In this document: positions 204 through 10,163 of the stretch, piece after piece | Position numbering within the stretch: the stretch's first letter is position 1 | Layout of the letters: each line of letters starts with the position of its first letter | Notes under the pieces: generated by a model | What the model saw: the letters and a program-made list of their open reading frames with translations, nothing else | Databases searched by the model: none | Told to the model about the DNA's origin: nothing | Source of the DNA: a bacterium (Candidatus Blackallbacteria) CG13_big_fil_rev_8_21_14_2_50_49_14 | Lineage (GTDB): Bacteria > Cyanobacteriota > Sericytochromatia > UBA7694 | Assembly (NCBI GenBank): GCA_002783405.1 | Contig: PFGG01000024.1 | Location: forward strand, 1 to 32,530 | Reading direction: 5' to 3' | DNA length: 32,530 nt | Position numbers and translations under genes: made by a program

Positions 204-809
204 ATGTCTATTCGCATGCGAATTTTTAGACAAAGTCAAAAAGGTTTTACCATATTAGAACTTTTAATGGCTTTGGTTATTTTTATCATGGTTACCGCAG
301 GGATTCAGCTGTTTGTAATTTCAGCGATGACCTCGATGAGCCGTCAAACCAAGGCTGAAATTGCAGAAGATTTGGGCGAGATGGTCAGCACCCAGGTCGC
401 AAGAAGTTCTACTAATTTTCAAGTGTTGGATGATATCGTGGGCTTAAATCGTGCTGCTTATACCGCAGCACCCCTTGCTCTGACGCTGTATTCAAATGCA
501 AACCCCAATGTAAATCCGTTGAACCCGAACAGTAATACTACTGTTTCTGGGCTTTTCGGTACCCAGGGCCTGAGCAATATTGACGCCCAGGCGAAAAAAT
601 TACCTTGGGTAGAAATCAAGCTCTTTGCAAAACCGATGCCGGCTGAGCAGGAAATTCCTTTTACCAACCCTACTCAATACATTACGGTTCCCTCTTTAAC
701 TCAAATTGAAGTTTCAACGGAAGTCAGTTGGAAAAATCCTGCCAGTACCAAGGTGCGCACACGCACGTTTACACGCGTTTTAAGCAAAGACTTTTCTTCA
801 TATCCTTAG
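204..809 (+). CDS. type IV prepilin-like protein (PilV-like minor pilin)
   Basis: This 201-residue protein has a class III prepilin leader. A short basic segment ends in Lys13-Gly14, followed by a hydrophobic helix starting FTILELLMALVIF. Cleavage by the prepilin peptidase would fall after Gly14, giving Phe at +1 and the conserved Glu at +5 (Glu19). The helix (about 15-40) would anchor it in the inner membrane and pack in the pilus core. The remaining ~160 residues form a Ser/Thr/Asn-rich globular head with no recognised domain. Length and a neighbouring larger prepilin suggest a PilV-like minor pilin or pseudopilin of a type IV pilus or type II secretion system. The head is too divergent to tell which. 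The start at 204 gives a normal leader; Met5 (216) is an alternative. Confidence 0.8.
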   Translation: MSIRMRIFRQSQKGFTILELLMALVIFIMVTAGIQLFVISAMTSMSRQTKAEIAEDLGEMVSTQVARSSTNFQVLDDIVGLNRAAYTAAPLALTLYSNANPNVNPLNPNSNTTVSGLFGTQGLSNIDAQAKKLPWVEIKLFAKPMPAEQEIPFTNPTQYITVPSLTQIEVSTEVSWKNPASTKVRTRTFTRVLSKDFSSYP

Positions 810-830
810 CTGATAGGAAACAATTTAAGC

Positions 831-1595
831 ATGGTTTTTTTGAGAAAATTCAAAACGAAATCCCAGCAGCGATTTCAAAAAGGTTTGACTTTGGTTGAAC
901 TGATGGTGGTGATGGGTTTGATGAGCATTGTGATTGTTGCAATTACCAAGTTGATGTTCTCTTTTACCACCAAAATGAATCAACAAAATTTAAGTATGCA
1001 AGTTCGAGAAGAGCTGCGCAATACCCTGCGCGGTTTGGAAAAAGAATTGCGTAATGGCAGTGGCGTGATCGCCTCTTGCAGTTCCTCACGCTGTGGTGGC
1101 CAAACCTATAACAGCGGAGCTGATGTTTTGGTGATTGCACAACCCATTTACAATCCTGACGCAACACCTAAATCTCTCAACCCCTATGGCACGGGGGGCA
1201 ATGAAATGGATTTTGATGTTGTTGTTTTTGAAAAAATCACCGACAATACCAAAATTCCACCTGTCAAAAATCTGGTCATGAGTCGTTTTCCTGGAACCGG
1301 AAGTGCTCAGGTGCCTCTCAATAAACAAGTGAGGTACAGAGGGCTTTCCGATATCAATACAGGTTTGCATGGCAAAGCAGGAACCTCTGCCTATGAGCGT
1401 TTTTCCTATTACAATAGCAATGGCAATAAAATTACAAGTGCGCTCAGCTGTCCTGCGGTGCCTGAGACGCCGTCTAAATGTCCCCGTGTGGTTGAAATTC
1501 AACTTTGTGGCTTAAAAACCTACGGGGCCCATAACCTTGTGGAATGCAAAATGGTAGACACCCGTTTTCTTTGGCAAAGTTATTTTTCCTTATAA
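831..1595 (+). CDS. type IV prepilin-like protein (PilW/GspJ-like minor pilin)
   Basis: This 254-residue protein has a prepilin leader ending Gln-Lys-Gly18 followed by LTLVELMVVMGLMSIVIV, so cleavage after Gly18 leaves Leu at +1 and Glu23 at +5. The head is larger than that of the preceding prepilin and contains a clustered Cys pair (CSSSRC, about 83-88) plus four cysteines in the last 50 residues. That suggests disulfide-stabilised loops, as in PilW-type minor pilins. The gene lies 21 bases downstream of the first prepilin and is very likely co-transcribed. Minor pilins prime pilus assembly and can form the tip. PilW versus GspJ cannot be settled without the rest of the operon, which would lie to the left of this window. 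Confidence 0.78.
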   Translation: MVFLRKFKTKSQQRFQKGLTLVELMVVMGLMSIVIVAITKLMFSFTTKMNQQNLSMQVREELRNTLRGLEKELRNGSGVIASCSSSRCGGQTYNSGADVLVIAQPIYNPDATPKSLNPYGTGGNEMDFDVVVFEKITDNTKIPPVKNLVMSRFPGTGSAQVPLNKQVRYRGLSDINTGLHGKAGTSAYERFSYYNSNGNKITSALSCPAVPETPSKCPRVVEIQLCGLKTYGAHNLVECKMVDTRFLWQSYFSL

Positions 1596-3688: not shown

Positions 3689-5668
3689 ATGAAACTTGCC
3701 TTTTTTCCTCTTTTTCATCCTTCCAGCTTTGATGGCAAAGGTTTCCAAGGTACAGGCATTGATTTCATGTCGGCCTATTATCTGACAGGCCTTTTGCCTT
3801 TCCTTGAAAAACATTTTCCTGATTTACAGACCTGCGTTGAAATTACGTTGCCGCGTATATTGTTGCAACGCCCTGATCTGGTGGTGATTTGGAGCAGTAC
3901 ACCGTCCTTTGAACAGGTTGAAACGGTGGCTGAAGTGATTAAACAGAATTTAGAAATTCCAATTTTATTGGCGGGCCCACATATTTCACATTTGCCCACA
4001 GCTTTGCCTGCCCATGTCGATATTGGTATTTTGGGTGAACCTGAAATCCCGCTGCACCAGCTATTGGGCATCTTCAGCAAGGATTTGCAAGCCGGGCCCA
4101 TGAAATATGGCAAAGTACCCGGTTTGATTTACCAGAGCCGGGGGCGTATTTATTCAGGTTCTCCAGCTAAAAGTATTCAACAGATTGATCAGTTGCCCAT
4201 GCCCCGGCACAGTTTATTGCACTCCCTGCCAGGCCGTTCGATCCCCTTGGTTTCTGTTTCTCGCGGCCCGCACTCTTTGATGGGCTTGCTGACCCAACCG
4301 CCTTCAGGGCGTGTGCGTTTTTTCTCTCCTGAGCGCACAGTGGCCGAGATTGCGCAGATTGCAGCAGATTATCGACAGCTCTATAGCAAGTGGCCCGTGC
4401 CTGCGGAAATGCTGGCTTATATTTTTCCGGTTTATATTGCCGATGAACTTTTTCTGGCTCAGCCTGAACGCTTTCAGGCGATTTGTGAGGGAATTCTTGC
4501 GCAAAACCTGCACAAATCGGTTTTCTTTATGGTGAATGCCTACCCGTCACAATTGAATCCAGAAACTTGTCGTTGGTTGCAATTGATCAATACCCGTAAA
4601 ATCATTTTGACTTTCCCCAGTTTTTCGACCCGCGAAGCGCCTTGGATGCCGGCTTGTTCTGCGGAACTCTTAACCCGGACTTTGGATGTCTGTGAGCAGT
4701 ACCGTCTGGGTGTGATTGGCAATTTCTTGCTCAATCCCCTGGCCGAAACCACCCGTCGTGAAATGGCCCATACCTATTGGACACTCTGGGAAAACAGACG
4801 TCGTTTTGATAAATTGAAAGCCTTTTATCTGCCTCCGATGCCCGGCACCCCCCTTTGGGAACAATACCAACAGCAGTACAAACTCAAAGCTGAAGATTTG
4901 GAGCGTCTACCCTGGCAGCAATTTGATCCTGAGCGGTTTACCCCCACTGTTCCGCTGGTCAACCGCACGGTGGATGCTGAGAGTTTTGCCTCAATCATGA
5001 AGGGCTTTCAAGTTTTGGCTGCCGATGATGGCGGGGTTCCAGATCAGGAAAAAGCCCCCATGAAACAGGATCAGGCCTACCAAATGCAGTTACAGTCTGC
5101 AAAGGCTTTACAAAAAAAATACTTGCATCCCGGCATGGACGTTTTAGAGGTTATTTTAGACGAGAGTTTTTCGCTCAAACCCTATTTGGCATCTGATTTC
5201 TGTGATTTACAGCAATTGAAGGTTGAAGGCGGACAGCTCAAGGGGCCCGCTCCGCGCCCTGTGGATTTGATCATTCTGCGTGGCTCACTGGCGGGTTTAC
5301 GCGAGCCACAAGCCGCTTTGGTGAGCCTCAGTCAGTCGCTTAAACCCGATGGGCAGATGCTGATCAGTCTGTTAAATGCGCAAAATATTGCCTTTATTCT
5401 TTCTGCCTTGAATTGGAGCTTGGAGCGCAGCAGTTATCCCTATAAGCTTTTGCGCTATTATTCTGAAAATACAGCACGTGAGCTGATTCAATCGGCCGGT
5501 TTGAAGATTCTGGACTTAGAATATACTATAATGAATAATATCCAGGGTTTTCGGGACTCCGTGGAAGGTTTGTTGAAACGTTTTGAAACCTTCTGGCCCC
5601 TTGCTGTAAGCGAAGAACGCCTTTATATTATGGAAATCAGCATGCTGGTAAAGAAAAACAGGAAGTGA
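3689..5668 (+). CDS. degenerate radical SAM paralogue lacking the cluster cysteines, with methyltransferase-like tail
   Basis: This 659-residue protein aligns along its length with its upstream neighbour. The B12-binding-like domain keeps the same framework (IPILLAGPHIS, VDIGILGEPE, residues 90-120). At the position of the neighbour's ARGCPYKCTFC it reads SRGPHSLMGLL (191-201), so all three cysteines that would hold the [4Fe-4S] cluster are gone. Downstream features such as IGNFLLNPLAE and PMPGTPLWEQ still match, so the fold is probably kept. A class I methyltransferase-like tail follows (about 485-655) with 'DVLEVI' in place of motif I. The frame is intact, which argues against a simple pseudogene. 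I infer a non-catalytic partner or substrate/cobalamin-binding subunit. It sits 34 bases after the active paralogue and 4 bases before the third gene. Confidence 0.72.
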   Translation: MKLAFFPLFHPSSFDGKGFQGTGIDFMSAYYLTGLLPFLEKHFPDLQTCVEITLPRILLQRPDLVVIWSSTPSFEQVETVAEVIKQNLEIPILLAGPHISHLPTALPAHVDIGILGEPEIPLHQLLGIFSKDLQAGPMKYGKVPGLIYQSRGRIYSGSPAKSIQQIDQLPMPRHSLLHSLPGRSIPLVSVSRGPHSLMGLLTQPPSGRVRFFSPERTVAEIAQIAADYRQLYSKWPVPAEMLAYIFPVYIADELFLAQPERFQAICEGILAQNLHKSVFFMVNAYPSQLNPETCRWLQLINTRKIILTFPSFSTREAPWMPACSAELLTRTLDVCEQYRLGVIGNFLLNPLAETTRREMAHTYWTLWENRRRFDKLKAFYLPPMPGTPLWEQYQQQYKLKAEDLERLPWQQFDPERFTPTVPLVNRTVDAESFASIMKGFQVLAADDGGVPDQEKAPMKQDQAYQMQLQSAKALQKKYLHPGMDVLEVILDESFSLKPYLASDFCDLQQLKVEGGQLKGPAPRPVDLIILRGSLAGLREPQAALVSLSQSLKPDGQMLISLLNAQNIAFILSALNWSLERSSYPYKLLRYYSENTARELIQSAGLKILDLEYTIMNNIQGFRDSVEGLLKRFETFWPLAVSEERLYIMEISMLVKKNRK

Positions 5669-5672
5669 ACCC

Positions 5673-6362
5673 ATGTACGATCAATACCGTCAACAAATGG
5701 CTGAAAAGCTCAAGAGTTTGATTAAACCCGAGCATCAACGGGTTTTGTGTGTGGGAGATCCTCTGGCGCTGATTCAAACACAGATTCAAGAGCAAGGGGG
5801 GGAGTTTGTTCTGGTAGAGAGCCTGAACCCCAACTGGCGTGATATCAGCCGTGATCAACCCAAATTGCCTTTGGATTTACCTGAAAAGCATTTTGACCTG
5901 CTTTTGGTCTACCATGCGCTTGAACAGGCGATTGACCCAGAACGCTTGATTTTGGAATTGCGCAAATATATGCAGCCTGAAGGCCAGATTTATATTGTGG
6001 CCTATAATGTTGGCCATATCTCCACGATTATCAACCTGCTGACAGAAGGCTGGGCCTACCAGGATGATGGCGCTTTGCGCCACAGCCATGTGCGCTATTT
6101 TTCCAATGAATCTTTGCGCAAACTGATGGATCAGGTGGGGTTTGAATTTGTAGATGAAGTGGTCTATCAGATTCAGCAATTGCCTGTTTTAACCCGCCAA
6201 TTGTCGCAGATTATGAAAAACCCCTATCTCAGTATTTTGAGTTTTATTATGATTGGCCGCAAAATCAATAGTTTTCCCTTTATTGATTTTGAAGATGATT
6301 CTGAAAAAGAAGCGCCTGTCAAAGCCGATAAAAAATCTGAATCCCCTGCGAGCCCTAATTAA
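5673..6362 (+). CDS. stand-alone class I methyltransferase-like protein
   Basis: This 229-residue protein corresponds to the C-terminal domains of the two preceding genes. It has a first strand RVLCVGDP, an acidic strand end FVLVES, a motif HFDLLLVYHALEQAIDP, a strand EGQIYIVAYN and a C-terminal RYFSNESLRKLMDQVGFEF typical of Methyltransf_11-like proteins. The usual GxGxG SAM loop is replaced by VGDPLA, so binding of SAM is uncertain. After about residue 205 there is a charged, disordered Lys/Glu/Ser tail. The gene begins 4 bases after its neighbour with AGGAAGTGA as ribosome binding site. It ends in an 8-base tail-to-tail overlap with the converging glycosyltransferase gene. It may be an active methyltransferase or a structural paralogue. 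Confidence 0.7.
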   Translation: MYDQYRQQMAEKLKSLIKPEHQRVLCVGDPLALIQTQIQEQGGEFVLVESLNPNWRDISRDQPKLPLDLPEKHFDLLLVYHALEQAIDPERLILELRKYMQPEGQIYIVAYNVGHISTIINLLTEGWAYQDDGALRHSHVRYFSNESLRKLMDQVGFEFVDEVVYQIQQLPVLTRQLSQIMKNPYLSILSFIMIGRKINSFPFIDFEDDSEKEAPVKADKKSESPASPN

Positions 6363-8229
6363 GCTCTGTCTGAGGTGAGTCCGCTAGATAGTAGGTCAAT
6401 TGACGCAAGCGCCTGAATTGGCTTTGTTCGGATTCAAAACGAGGAATCGTATCAAACAAGGGCTGCATGGTTTTGAACCATTCACAGGCCTTTTCGTATT
6501 GCTGTGTTTCCACAAGTAACTCCAAAAACTCCTGATGGGCCTGGGCCTGAAAAAAGTGTTGCCTAAGATAGGTCTGATAGCTTTGCAAGGCTTTTTCCGG
6601 TTGGTTTTGTAGGCGTTGAATGCGGGCCAGTTCAAAACCTACACTGCCAAATTCAGGAAGTAGCGCCAGAGCTTCAGCATATAAAACCTCGGCTTGGTTT
6701 AAACCGAAGCTGGATTGGCTCAGGATGCGAGCCTGTAAAACCTTGTGGTTCCAAAGCAAAAGGTTTTTCAAGGCCTCAGGTGCCTGTTGCTTTTGATAAA
6801 TCTGTGCCAAAAGTCTTTGCCAGTGTAAAAAGAAGCTGTTGTGGCCAAAGGGCAAGAGTGCATCTAGCCAGGTGAGCAGCAGTGTGGGGTTGAATTTAGC
6901 TAAATTCAGCAGTTGGACGGCTCCCTGGCTATAGGCCAAGGCCCTCTGAAAATCGCCTCTCAAAAAACAATACCAGGCAGCATTGGTCAAGATCAGGGGG
7001 TGATGCGGTGTTTGAAACAAACGGGCAAAAATTTGTTCCGCGCTGATTTCAGAGCGATAGCCCGAGGGCTCAGGGTTGAATTCATAATCGGTCAGGCAGG
7101 CCGCCATGGCATTGAGTGCTTCCGGAGAGGAGGTCTCGCTTTGCCATTGCATGATTTCACGTACGGCGACTTCTCTGGCGCGATCCAGGAGCAGATGGTA
7201 GGTCTGACGTATTCTCAGCAGGGCACGCTGGCTAACGGCCTGTTGTTGAGTGCGGCGAATTCTTCGCGGGAGCTTGAGTATTTCAGGCAGGCGTTTGAGT
7301 AGTTTTTCGAACTGATGAGCCGCCGTTTGGGTTTTGACAGCCCTTAAGGCAAAGTCTGCAATTTTTTGGAGCGCTTGTGGGTTTTCTAAATAACTTTCAA
7401 TCTGTGCTTCAAAATTTTCGCTGTTGTAGAGAATACAGCCTTGATCGGGGGGCAGATAGTCTCGGATTTCAAGATTGCTTTCTTCCATCAAAACAACGGC
7501 ACCACAGCTTGAGGCCTCAAATGCTCTCAGGTTCATTTCGCTGCGAACACTGTAGTTAAATATCAGTTTGCTTTGATTGAGGATTTTACGAAAATCTTCG
7601 CCATAGCGATGGGTATCGATCAAAATTTTATAGCGCTTGCTGAGTTTGAGCAGACGCTGAAGATAGACTTCACGCATGGGATGCAGAGAAAAATTGAGGC
7701 TACCCAGATAGGTGACATCATACATTCTTTCAAGTGGCGGAGACTCCAAATAGGTGCGCTCTGGGTAAAGTGCATAACTGGGCCAATACGTGCAGTGGCT
7801 ATGCCCCGCTTGATTTAAGATTTTGACCAGAGCCCGGTCACAGAGAATATGATCGAAGGCTTCGACATAGCGTAAAACCACGCTCAGGTTTTCGTGCCAG
7901 TCAGAGACCACCAGCAGGGTGGGAATGGGGCATTCTGCAATATCGAGCGGCACGGGTGCGTAAAGGCCCCACCAGATCAAAAGCTCGGGTGGACTTTGGG
8001 GGGGAAATTGGGCCAGGAGAGACTGGATATTGCTCTGGGCATAGTCATAATTGAGAAGCCGCCCGGTGGAGGGAAACTGATCCGTAACCATATCGTAACC
8101 TGGGGGCATATCCGACCATTTGATGCCATTCATGACAAAAACATAAATATTGGGATCAAAGAGGTAATCGCCCAATAATTGGGGGTGGTAGAGCGGGCCG
8201 ATCAGAGTTTTGAAAGGTGAGGGCATCAT
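6355..8229 (-). CDS. CgeB-like glycosyltransferase with C-terminal TPR-type repeats
   Basis: This 624-residue protein has an N-terminal half resembling the CgeB/Glyco_trans_1_2 group of GT-B glycosyltransferases. Residues 100-180 carry TLLVVSDWHENL and YDVTYLGSLN. Residues 220-270 carry SKLIFNYSVRSEMNLRAFEA and the acidic donor-site pair region (AFEASSCGAVVLMEES). Residues about 340-620 are helical with repeated Ala/Leu/Tyr patterns (for example EKALQSYQTYLRQHFFQAQA) suggesting tetratricopeptide repeats. Such proteins transfer sugars to protein or surface glycans, and the repeats often bind the acceptor. The start overlaps the stop of the upstream radical SAM gene as ATGA, implying translational coupling. 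The sugar and acceptor are unknown. Confidence 0.72.
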   Translation of the reverse strand: MMPSPFKTLIGPLYHPQLLGDYLFDPNIYVFVMNGIKWSDMPPGYDMVTDQFPSTGRLLNYDYAQSNIQSLLAQFPPQSPPELLIWWGLYAPVPLDIAECPIPTLLVVSDWHENLSVVLRYVEAFDHILCDRALVKILNQAGHSHCTYWPSYALYPERTYLESPPLERMYDVTYLGSLNFSLHPMREVYLQRLLKLSKRYKILIDTHRYGEDFRKILNQSKLIFNYSVRSEMNLRAFEASSCGAVVLMEESNLEIRDYLPPDQGCILYNSENFEAQIESYLENPQALQKIADFALRAVKTQTAAHQFEKLLKRLPEILKLPRRIRRTQQQAVSQRALLRIRQTYHLLLDRAREVAVREIMQWQSETSSPEALNAMAACLTDYEFNPEPSGYRSEISAEQIFARLFQTPHHPLILTNAAWYCFLRGDFQRALAYSQGAVQLLNLAKFNPTLLLTWLDALLPFGHNSFFLHWQRLLAQIYQKQQAPEALKNLLLWNHKVLQARILSQSSFGLNQAEVLYAEALALLPEFGSVGFELARIQRLQNQPEKALQSYQTYLRQHFFQAQAHQEFLELLVETQQYEKACEWFKTMQPLFDTIPRFESEQSQFRRLRQLTYYLADSPQTELN

Positions 8230-10163
8230 TGCTTGCTGGGGGCTTCTACTTGCAATTCATAGGGGGGGCCCTGCCAGTTTTTAAAATAGCGCAGCGGCTG
8301 AGCTTTGAGTTGCCAAGGCAAGCCTGAAAGCAAGGCCTGATAAACTTCAGGCAAATTGAAGTCGAGATTTACTTCGAGAGTTTCTTGGTGAAAAGGCAGC
8401 ACAGGATCCCCCAAAGCGGTCATATAACTGGTTTTAAACAGTGCGGCATTCAAGGCAATGCTTTGACGCAAAAGCTGCTCTGAAAAAGAAGATTGAAGGG
8501 GCTGTAAAAATTCAAGCAAAAGGCTTTCCACTTCGCTGTAAAAAGCGTTGAGCTGATTTTCCTGACAGAGTGTAAGCAGCAGGTATTGTTCCGGTGGAAC
8601 AGGTATTTCCAGCCCAACACGTGTTGGATGACTCATCCAGCAGGTTTCTGTCTGGCCGGCCTGCAGGCCCTGGGCTTTTTCCATAAAAAAGTGCGTGAGC
8701 GATGCCAGGCAAGGCCATGTGTGGGGATCTGCTTCCATAAAGCGTTCTATCAGTTGCCGAAAAGGAATTTCTCCGATTTGGTTCAGAAGCAACAGCGGAA
8801 TTTGCAGGGGTTTGTGAATATAATAGAGAAATTTTGTGAACCAGGCAAAGACACGGGTTTTGAGCCAATCGGCTCGCGGCAGGCTGGCGGTGGCAATCAC
8901 CATTTCACCCTGTTCAATAATATCGTGCGCATGCAGGCGTTCGGGATGCAGGGTGATCATGGCGGTTTCAATGCCATGGTGTGCCCGGTAGCTGGCTTGG
9001 CCCATCTCGGCATTGGGCAGAACCAGGGCATTGTAAAATTGCATGCGACTGTGTTGACCGCTGGCAATGACGGCTTCGACCCCCCGTGTAAACGAGGCAT
9101 AGGTCTCACCGGGCAATCCCAAAATCATGTCGGTATAGGTCGGCACACCCATGGCCTGAAAACGTTTTTGTAGCTCGAGAAATGTTTGCAGTGAAATATT
9201 GTCGCGTTTGATTTGCTTGAGAGTATGGGCGTCCATCGACTGCAAAGAAAGCGTGACTTCGGTATAAATGCCCGCCTTTGCGAAGATTTGGTGAAGTTCC
9301 CAGGTGCGTTCGGGTGCGTTTTTAGCGGTCTGCTGATGAAAGGTATGTGGATAGCCTTTGCGTTGAAAAACACTGCCGGCATAGGCTGCGATTTCAAGAT
9401 CCCGCTTGAGAATGCCAAAATTGGCATCACAGCAGAAAATCATGTCAATTTGGTGATTGCCAAACCATTCCAGGTCACGGTAGAGCATTTCCTGATCAAA
9501 CTGACTGATTTTGCTCGCAGTGGCTGAACCCCAGTCACAGAAGCTGCATGAAAAAGGGCAGCCCCGATTGGTTTCCCAGGGGGCAATCCAGCGTAAATGG
9601 GGATAGGCTCTGAGCAGGGGCAGAAAAACTTCACTGTGATAGGGTGAGGGAATATCTGCCAAAGAGCGCTGACGGGGGGCGGGGGGCTGGTAGATATAGT
9701 TTCCCCGGTCGTCGAGATAACTGAGACCCGGTATGTTCTGCCAGTTTTGGATTGAATAATTTTCTAAAATTTGGGTAAATGCGGCTTCACCGGGCCCGTG
9801 GCAACAGAGATCGACCCAGGGGTTTTCTCGTAAAAAAGTTTCAGCTTGATCAGGAATTTGCGGGCCGCCAAACAGAATCAAGACTTGTGGATTCTGCAGT
9901 TTGAGCATTTGAGCCAGGGCCAGAGAGCGTCGGATATTCCAGACATAAACAGAAAAGCCGACAATCTGTAAATCTTTCAGGCGCGTGGCCAATATTTCAA
10001 CAGCTTCGGGCAGAAAGAGAGGGGGACAGAATTCAAAGTTTTCTGGTTCTGTCAGATATTTTTGTGCATAGGCCTGAAGCAGGCCTGCAGAATAGGGAAA
10101 AAATTGGTGCCCCTGAAAAATTTCGCTGAACTGAACCAGCCCCACCTGAACAGGGCTTTTCAT
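8226..10163 (-). CDS. B12-binding radical SAM enzyme (CDWG type)
   Basis: This 645-residue protein has an N-terminal cobalamin-binding domain (about 5-150; VGFSVYVWN, LILFGGPQIP, CCHGPGEAAF). It is followed by a radical SAM core with CPFSCSFC (Cys202, Cys206, Cys209) preceded by TNRG and followed by DWGS. LSLQSMD and MILGLPGET segments match the second half of the barrel. The CDWG signature resembles cobalamin-dependent C-methyltransferases of the KedN5-like group, from memory and not checked. Residues about 440-645 form an extra domain I do not recognise. It is less related to the 1.7-5.7 kb pair than those are to each other. The first codon follows AAAGGA at 7 bases. The stop overlaps the glycosyltransferase start, so the two form a coupled pair. 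Confidence 0.8.
   Translation of the reverse strand: MKSPVQVGLVQFSEIFQGHQFFPYSAGLLQAYAQKYLTEPENFEFCPPLFLPEAVEILATRLKDLQIVGFSVYVWNIRRSLALAQMLKLQNPQVLILFGGPQIPDQAETFLRENPWVDLCCHGPGEAAFTQILENYSIQNWQNIPGLSYLDDRGNYIYQPPAPRQRSLADIPSPYHSEVFLPLLRAYPHLRWIAPWETNRGCPFSCSFCDWGSATASKISQFDQEMLYRDLEWFGNHQIDMIFCCDANFGILKRDLEIAAYAGSVFQRKGYPHTFHQQTAKNAPERTWELHQIFAKAGIYTEVTLSLQSMDAHTLKQIKRDNISLQTFLELQKRFQAMGVPTYTDMILGLPGETYASFTRGVEAVIASGQHSRMQFYNALVLPNAEMGQASYRAHHGIETAMITLHPERLHAHDIIEQGEMVIATASLPRADWLKTRVFAWFTKFLYYIHKPLQIPLLLLNQIGEIPFRQLIERFMEADPHTWPCLASLTHFFMEKAQGLQAGQTETCWMSHPTRVGLEIPVPPEQYLLLTLCQENQLNAFYSEVESLLLEFLQPLQSSFSEQLLRQSIALNAALFKTSYMTALGDPVLPFHQETLEVNLDFNLPEVYQALLSGLPWQLKAQPLRYFKNWQGPPYELQVEAPSKQ

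Follow-up and report, generated by a model that had tools for sequence, protein, structure and literature searches.

A putative radical SAM pseudoenzyme without cluster cysteines, encoded between an intact paralogue and a methyltransferase-like protein in Sericytochromatia

A three-gene locus and its surroundings

The window, by which we mean the whole 32,530-nucleotide stretch analysed here, is one entire contig (G000:C24) of a 5.65 Mb draft genome. The host order is a little-known, non-photosynthetic group within the cyanobacterial phylum, of which Sericytochromatia is a class. Among the open reading frames of the window, three co-directed genes form a group on the forward strand: P1 (1708..3654), P2 (3689..5668) and P3 (5673..6362), with intergenic gaps of 34 bases between P1 and P2 and 4 bases between P2 and P3. 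The frames of P1 (648 aa) and P2 (659 aa) are both open. P1 is an intact B12-binding/radical SAM/methyltransferase-like protein by its Pfam (Radical_SAM 1e-18, B12-binding 6e-13, Methyltransf_23 1e-7), AF2 and PDB matches, and carries the cluster cysteines C183, C187 and C190 (2254-2277, forward strand). NCBIfam profiles gave no family membership; the best matches of P1, to the HpnJ, BchE and ApyD profiles (E 1e-35 to 1e-38), all scored far below the curated cut-offs, for example 133 of 578 bits for HpnJ, and assignment of P1 to these families was rejected. P3 is, by Pfam, a stand-alone Methyltransf_23-like protein in which the glycine-rich motif I is replaced by VLCVGD.

Two prepilin-type (N_methyl) genes recognised by Pfam (204..1595, forward strand) lie directly upstream of P1. 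Prepilin-like genes stand 5' of P1 in all four triplet-bearing genomes, that of the window and three relatives, and the window's genome holds 11 prepilin-type genes; those upstream of P1 may be just an inherited neighbourhood. At 6355-10163, on the reverse strand, lie two overlapping genes: one is glycosyltransferase-like (Pfam Glyco_trans_1_2), the other a second, intact B12 radical SAM gene whose best NCBIfam match is KedN5 (2e-76), yet below the cut-off. G001, a related genome, has both genes as well; next to the triplets of G002 and G003 neither was seen. An Rfam scan of the window returned no cobalamin riboswitch and no other Rfam element.

Loss of the cluster motif in P2

Taken together, BLASTP, Pfam, profile comparison and AF2 give P2 the architecture of P1. 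The two proteins align by BLASTP at 28% identity over 565 columns (E 6e-48), and a profile of the Cys-less clade that includes P2 matches the intact-family profile with a probability of 100% (E 1e-80, 606 columns). Where P1 reads RGCPYKCTFC, P2 reads RGPHSLMGLL (within SRGPHSLMGLL, aa 191-201, 4259..4291, forward strand), and the ligand positions C183, C187 and C190 are taken by P194, M198 and L201. The anchors flanking the lost motif (R181, R200 and S203 in P1 numbering) are retained in all six Cys-less proteins, that is, P2 and five relatives, and CxxxCxxC is absent from every one of them. The initial annotation, which had P2 aligning with P1 over its length and losing all three cluster cysteines in an open frame with flanking motifs kept, is borne out on these points, and the absence of CxxxCxxC supports its claim that P2 cannot bind the canonical [4Fe-4S] cluster. 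A frameshift or assembly artefact was rejected as the source of the loss: the other two reading frames at 4259-4291 contain no CxxxCxxC, and the motif is lost in six genomes. We also sought replacement cysteines across the six Cys-less proteins, the initial annotation having asked whether three others might occupy the cluster position, and found no conserved set of three at the sequence level. The only cysteine column common to most of the six is C335, which is equally present in all 26 intact relatives, and replacement ligands were rejected.

In the degenerate radical SAM barrel of P2 (aa 206-400, 4304..4888, forward strand), PGTxxW is retained and the equivalents of G284, E286 and G326 are gone. 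None of the six Cys-less proteins retains G284 or E286, the GxE residues in P1 numbering. G326, the glycine of GxIxGxxE in the same numbering, is lost in the four members of the window's family and kept in the other two, from genomes G005 and G006; the E330 position is E, E, Q and D in the former four and E in the latter two. From the distribution of G326, loss of the cysteines and GxE seems to have come before that of the remaining SAM site.

Pfam finds in P2 a B12-binding domain, below the cut-off, and a Methyltransf_23 domain; the radical SAM domain it no longer sees, which is a caution for annotation. The cobalamin-binding-type domain (aa 56-125, 3854..4063, forward strand), bounded by Pfam and supported by residue conservation and pN/pS, matches PF02310 at E 3e-4 and 21 bits against a cut-off of 32, and five of the six Cys-less proteins match this profile at E<=1. 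G96, H98, P103, G113, G116, E117 and E119, which include the GxH and GE.E residues, are retained in all six; G85 and G108, invariant in the intact members, are replaced in most of the Cys-less clade. The C-terminal methyltransferase-like domain (aa 509-608, 5213..5512, forward strand; Methyltransf_23 1.5e-7) is modelled by AF2 with low confidence in parts. Methyltransf_23 scores are 31.9 bits for P1, 31.7 for P2 and 40.8 for P3 (cut-off 27), and the glycine-rich SAM motif (GxGxG) is missing from all three, at ILEIGIERS in P1, DVLEVILDES in P2 and VLCVGDPLA in P3. Motif I of P3 has the form hhhxGD/E, with GxGxG in none of the genomes, G005 and G006 included, and P3 may be a pseudo-methyltransferase in its own right.

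The AF2 models have a mean pLDDT of 71 for P2 and 82 for P1. In P2, AF2 predicts the B12 domain and the larger part of the barrel well; the surroundings of the lost motif (about 190-210) and much of the C-terminal third are poorly predicted. The best PDB matches of both models are TsrM, MgmA, CysS, TokK, OxsB and AprD4, and Foldseek compares the P2 model with TsrM, MgmA and CysS at E about 1e-14 to 1e-15; the AF2 alignments were built from the window proteins and related loci, intact relatives included, so the P2 fold is not independently proven by these matches. P2 shares ancestry and, as modelled, a partial TIM barrel fold with the radical SAM superfamily; though descended from it, P2 lacks the motif by which that superfamily is defined.

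Distribution, origin and selection

Orthologues of P2 without the motif occur in three further genomes of its family: G001 (65% identity), G002 (34%) and G003 (43-44% over the parts before a scaffold gap, the gene being split by a contig break). Each lies downstream of a P1 orthologue and upstream of P3, and the P1-P2-P3 order is thus conserved in four genomes, in G003 across two contigs. The genes downstream of the triplet in G000 and G001 differ from those in G002 and G003. Within 1680-1713 of the window, the true start of P1 is probably an ATT at 1696 rather than the first ATG at 1708. An AGGAGG or AGGGAGG lies 6-9 bases before each candidate P1 start in these four genomes, and 21 bases from the first ATG of the window copy; the putative non-standard start codons are ATT in G000 and G001 and ATA in G003, and G002 has ATG (MRLGMM).

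A second family of the order (f2) contributes one Cys-less relative each in G005 and G006, adjoining neither P1 nor P3. P3 relatives lie elsewhere in both genomes, and all six P2-bearing genomes have one. The initial annotation asked whether the Cys-less form always sits next to a Cys-containing twin, and adjacency to a Cys-containing relative is seen in four of the six genomes; in G005 an intact relative sharing a FWxxxRYHS stretch with P1, and by its sequence a probable P1 relative, is on another contig, and in G006 (74% complete) no intact close family member and no P1 were found. G004 (73% complete) has intact paralogues, and we found in it no P2 or P3 orthologue and no close P1 relative. 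The window genome encodes, besides P1, seven further close paralogues, all with CxxxCxxC. When 292 genomes of the phylum were searched with a Cys-less profile, no Cys-less relative from elsewhere in the phylum was seen among the 25 fetched loci ranked below the five Cys-less ones; all 25 carry CxxxCxxC and 23 are from outside the order.

G005:C432 (L197 1-3751), taken with G005:C605 (L062), bears the probable C-terminal part of the Cys-less gene of that genome. Genes for an acyl-AMP ligase, an acyl carrier protein and a glycosyltransferase follow 50 bases after it on the same strand, and these neighbours hint at a carrier-bound substrate.

The six Cys-less proteins form one clade in two trees (support 99/98 and 100/99), in which they are long branches, making the clade less certain than the support values. 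Because of these long branches we turned to a separate character, the PGxxxP motif that lies shortly ahead of the lost cysteines (aa 181-186 of P2, 4229..4246, forward strand): in the alignment of Cys-less and intact proteins it is present in six of six Cys-less proteins and in none of 26 intact paralogues. Beyond its orthologues, P1 has its nearest relatives at G000:C74 and G001:C59. P2 is thus no recent copy of P1, and recent tandem duplication of P1 as the source of P2 was rejected by the trees. The two genes are consequently not the twins they had been taken for; the sequences indicate that P2 is an ancient paralogue in an older, separate clade that is not closest to P1. We read P2 as having a single origin, in a cobalamin-dependent radical SAM family expanded in this Sericytochromatia order; loss of the cluster cysteines would have preceded the split of the order, with SAM-binding residues going afterwards.

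Between G000 and G001, P2 shows no indel in 659 codons. Pairwise dN/dS for these genomes is 0.10 for P2, 0.095 for P1 and 0.075 for P3, ratios that are rough, since fourfold sites differ at 64% and dS is saturated. Seven intact paralogue pairs give 0.06-0.16, and the relaxed selection or frequent frameshifts that might have marked P2 and its homologues as decaying were not seen, P2 lying in the intact range and the frames being open across the order. Within P2, pN/pS is 0.20 for aa 1-135, the B12 domain and the lowest of the protein, and 0.35 for the barrel, compared with 0.12 for the barrel of P1. This pattern fits a protein that lost catalysis and retained structure. P3 is the most conserved of the triplet, at 86% between G000 and G001. 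Judged from its sequence, P2 is a conserved pseudoenzyme under purifying selection, with active-type relatives, lost catalytic residues and a maintained gene.

Possible roles of P2

The class B cobalamin-dependent radical SAM methylases TsrM, CysS, TokK, OxsB and MgmA have the same order of domains as P1 and P2, B12-binding and then radical SAM; unlike them, P2 lacks CxxxCxxC and the GxE residues, and both P1 and P2 carry a C-terminal methyltransferase-like domain. The radical SAM dehydratase AprD4 (6fd2), among the best matches, shares the fold class with P1 and P2 but differs from P2 in being an active enzyme with a cluster; AprD4 has a degenerate B12 domain and functions together with a partner enzyme. 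Among other classes of enzyme, pseudoenzymes are a familiar phenomenon. In the full text of open-licence papers we found none on a clusterless radical SAM pseudoenzyme, which does not prove their absence.

The reading we favour, with a probability of roughly 0.55, is that P2 is a conserved pseudoenzyme that serves as a non-catalytic subunit, a scaffold or a substrate- or cobalamin-binding one, acting with P1 and the methyltransferase-like P3; we infer this partnership from linkage, common architecture and selection. P2 would scaffold or present the substrate, or hold cobalamin, for the radical reaction of P1, keeping its cobalamin-domain face, barrel fold and C-terminal methyltransferase-like domain, and P3 would be a third component beside the two. 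A works-like model is the eukaryotic tRNA-guanine transglycosylase QTRT1-QTRT2, in which a catalytic subunit is joined by an inactive related subunit required for activity (PMC6165067); its enzyme family is unrelated, and binding between P1 and P2 is putative. What speaks most strongly against an obligate pairing of P1 with P2 is the stand-alone Cys-less genes of G005 and G006, apart from P1 and P3 and, in G006, with no intact close family member seen in the 74% complete genome. They leave room for an independent ligand-binding role; where no P1 adjoins, P2 might act with a partner encoded elsewhere. An old gene cluster inherited jointly could likewise explain the synteny. Were the partnership real, it would mean that a radical SAM barrel can take on a scaffolding role, and such a natural heteromer would allow the roles of the cobalamin domain and of the cluster to be told apart. 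More speculatively, and with considerable doubt, the triplet might be an order-specific three-part machine in which P1 needs both a clusterless P2 and a P3 without the SAM glycine motif, perhaps acting on the prepilin-type proteins encoded upstream.

P2 could instead be, by itself, a cobalamin- or ligand-binding protein (a carrier, store or sensor) whose place beside P1 is an inherited neighbourhood. Such a role is possible, as no part of P2 is better kept than the B12-domain signature, where pN/pS is lower than in the barrel, and as two genomes have the gene away from P1 and P3; we consider it rather unlikely, since the barrel and C-terminal domain are also constrained, beyond the needs of a cobalamin carrier, the triplet order persists in four genomes and the otherwise invariant G85 and G108 are mostly replaced. 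A new, cluster-independent catalysis in the old barrel, through R192, R210, S213 and D252, appears improbable: the six Cys-less proteins agree at these positions, but so do the 26 intact relatives, so that structural conservation accounts for the agreement, and the P2 barrel is much less constrained than that of P1.

Dph1-Dph2 has an architecture different from that of P1 and P2. This asymmetric radical-SAM-type pair of diphthamide synthesis holds its clusters by distant cysteines, with no CX3CX2C (PMC11048331), and resembles P1-P2 in consisting of asymmetric related subunits. That P2 should bind a cluster in such a non-canonical way, with cysteines far apart in sequence, is very improbable; both Dph subunits hold a cluster, whereas P2, with C335 as its one widely shared cysteine, has no candidate ligand set. 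That P2 is a decaying copy, as its degraded barrel and SAM motifs and its faster amino-acid change than P1 might imply, is hardly credible given frames open across an order despite near-saturated synonymous sites, purifying selection, the lack of indels between G000 and G001, a conserved PGxxxP motif of its own, flanking domains still recognised by Pfam and fold, and a constant position between P1 and P3 in four genomes, and here the preference of the initial annotation for a pseudoenzyme is supported.

At G000:C80 (L049 3854-7710) and G001:C62 (L047 4213-8183), two adjacent intact B12 radical SAM paralogues overlap in one operon, and both members have CxxxCxxC, a paired arrangement without cysteine loss. 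Two B12 radical SAM genes, with products 34-35% identical to P1, occur on IMGVR_UViG_3300045960_000077 (L087, L088), a contig listed as viral that may be a bacterial one wrongly assigned.
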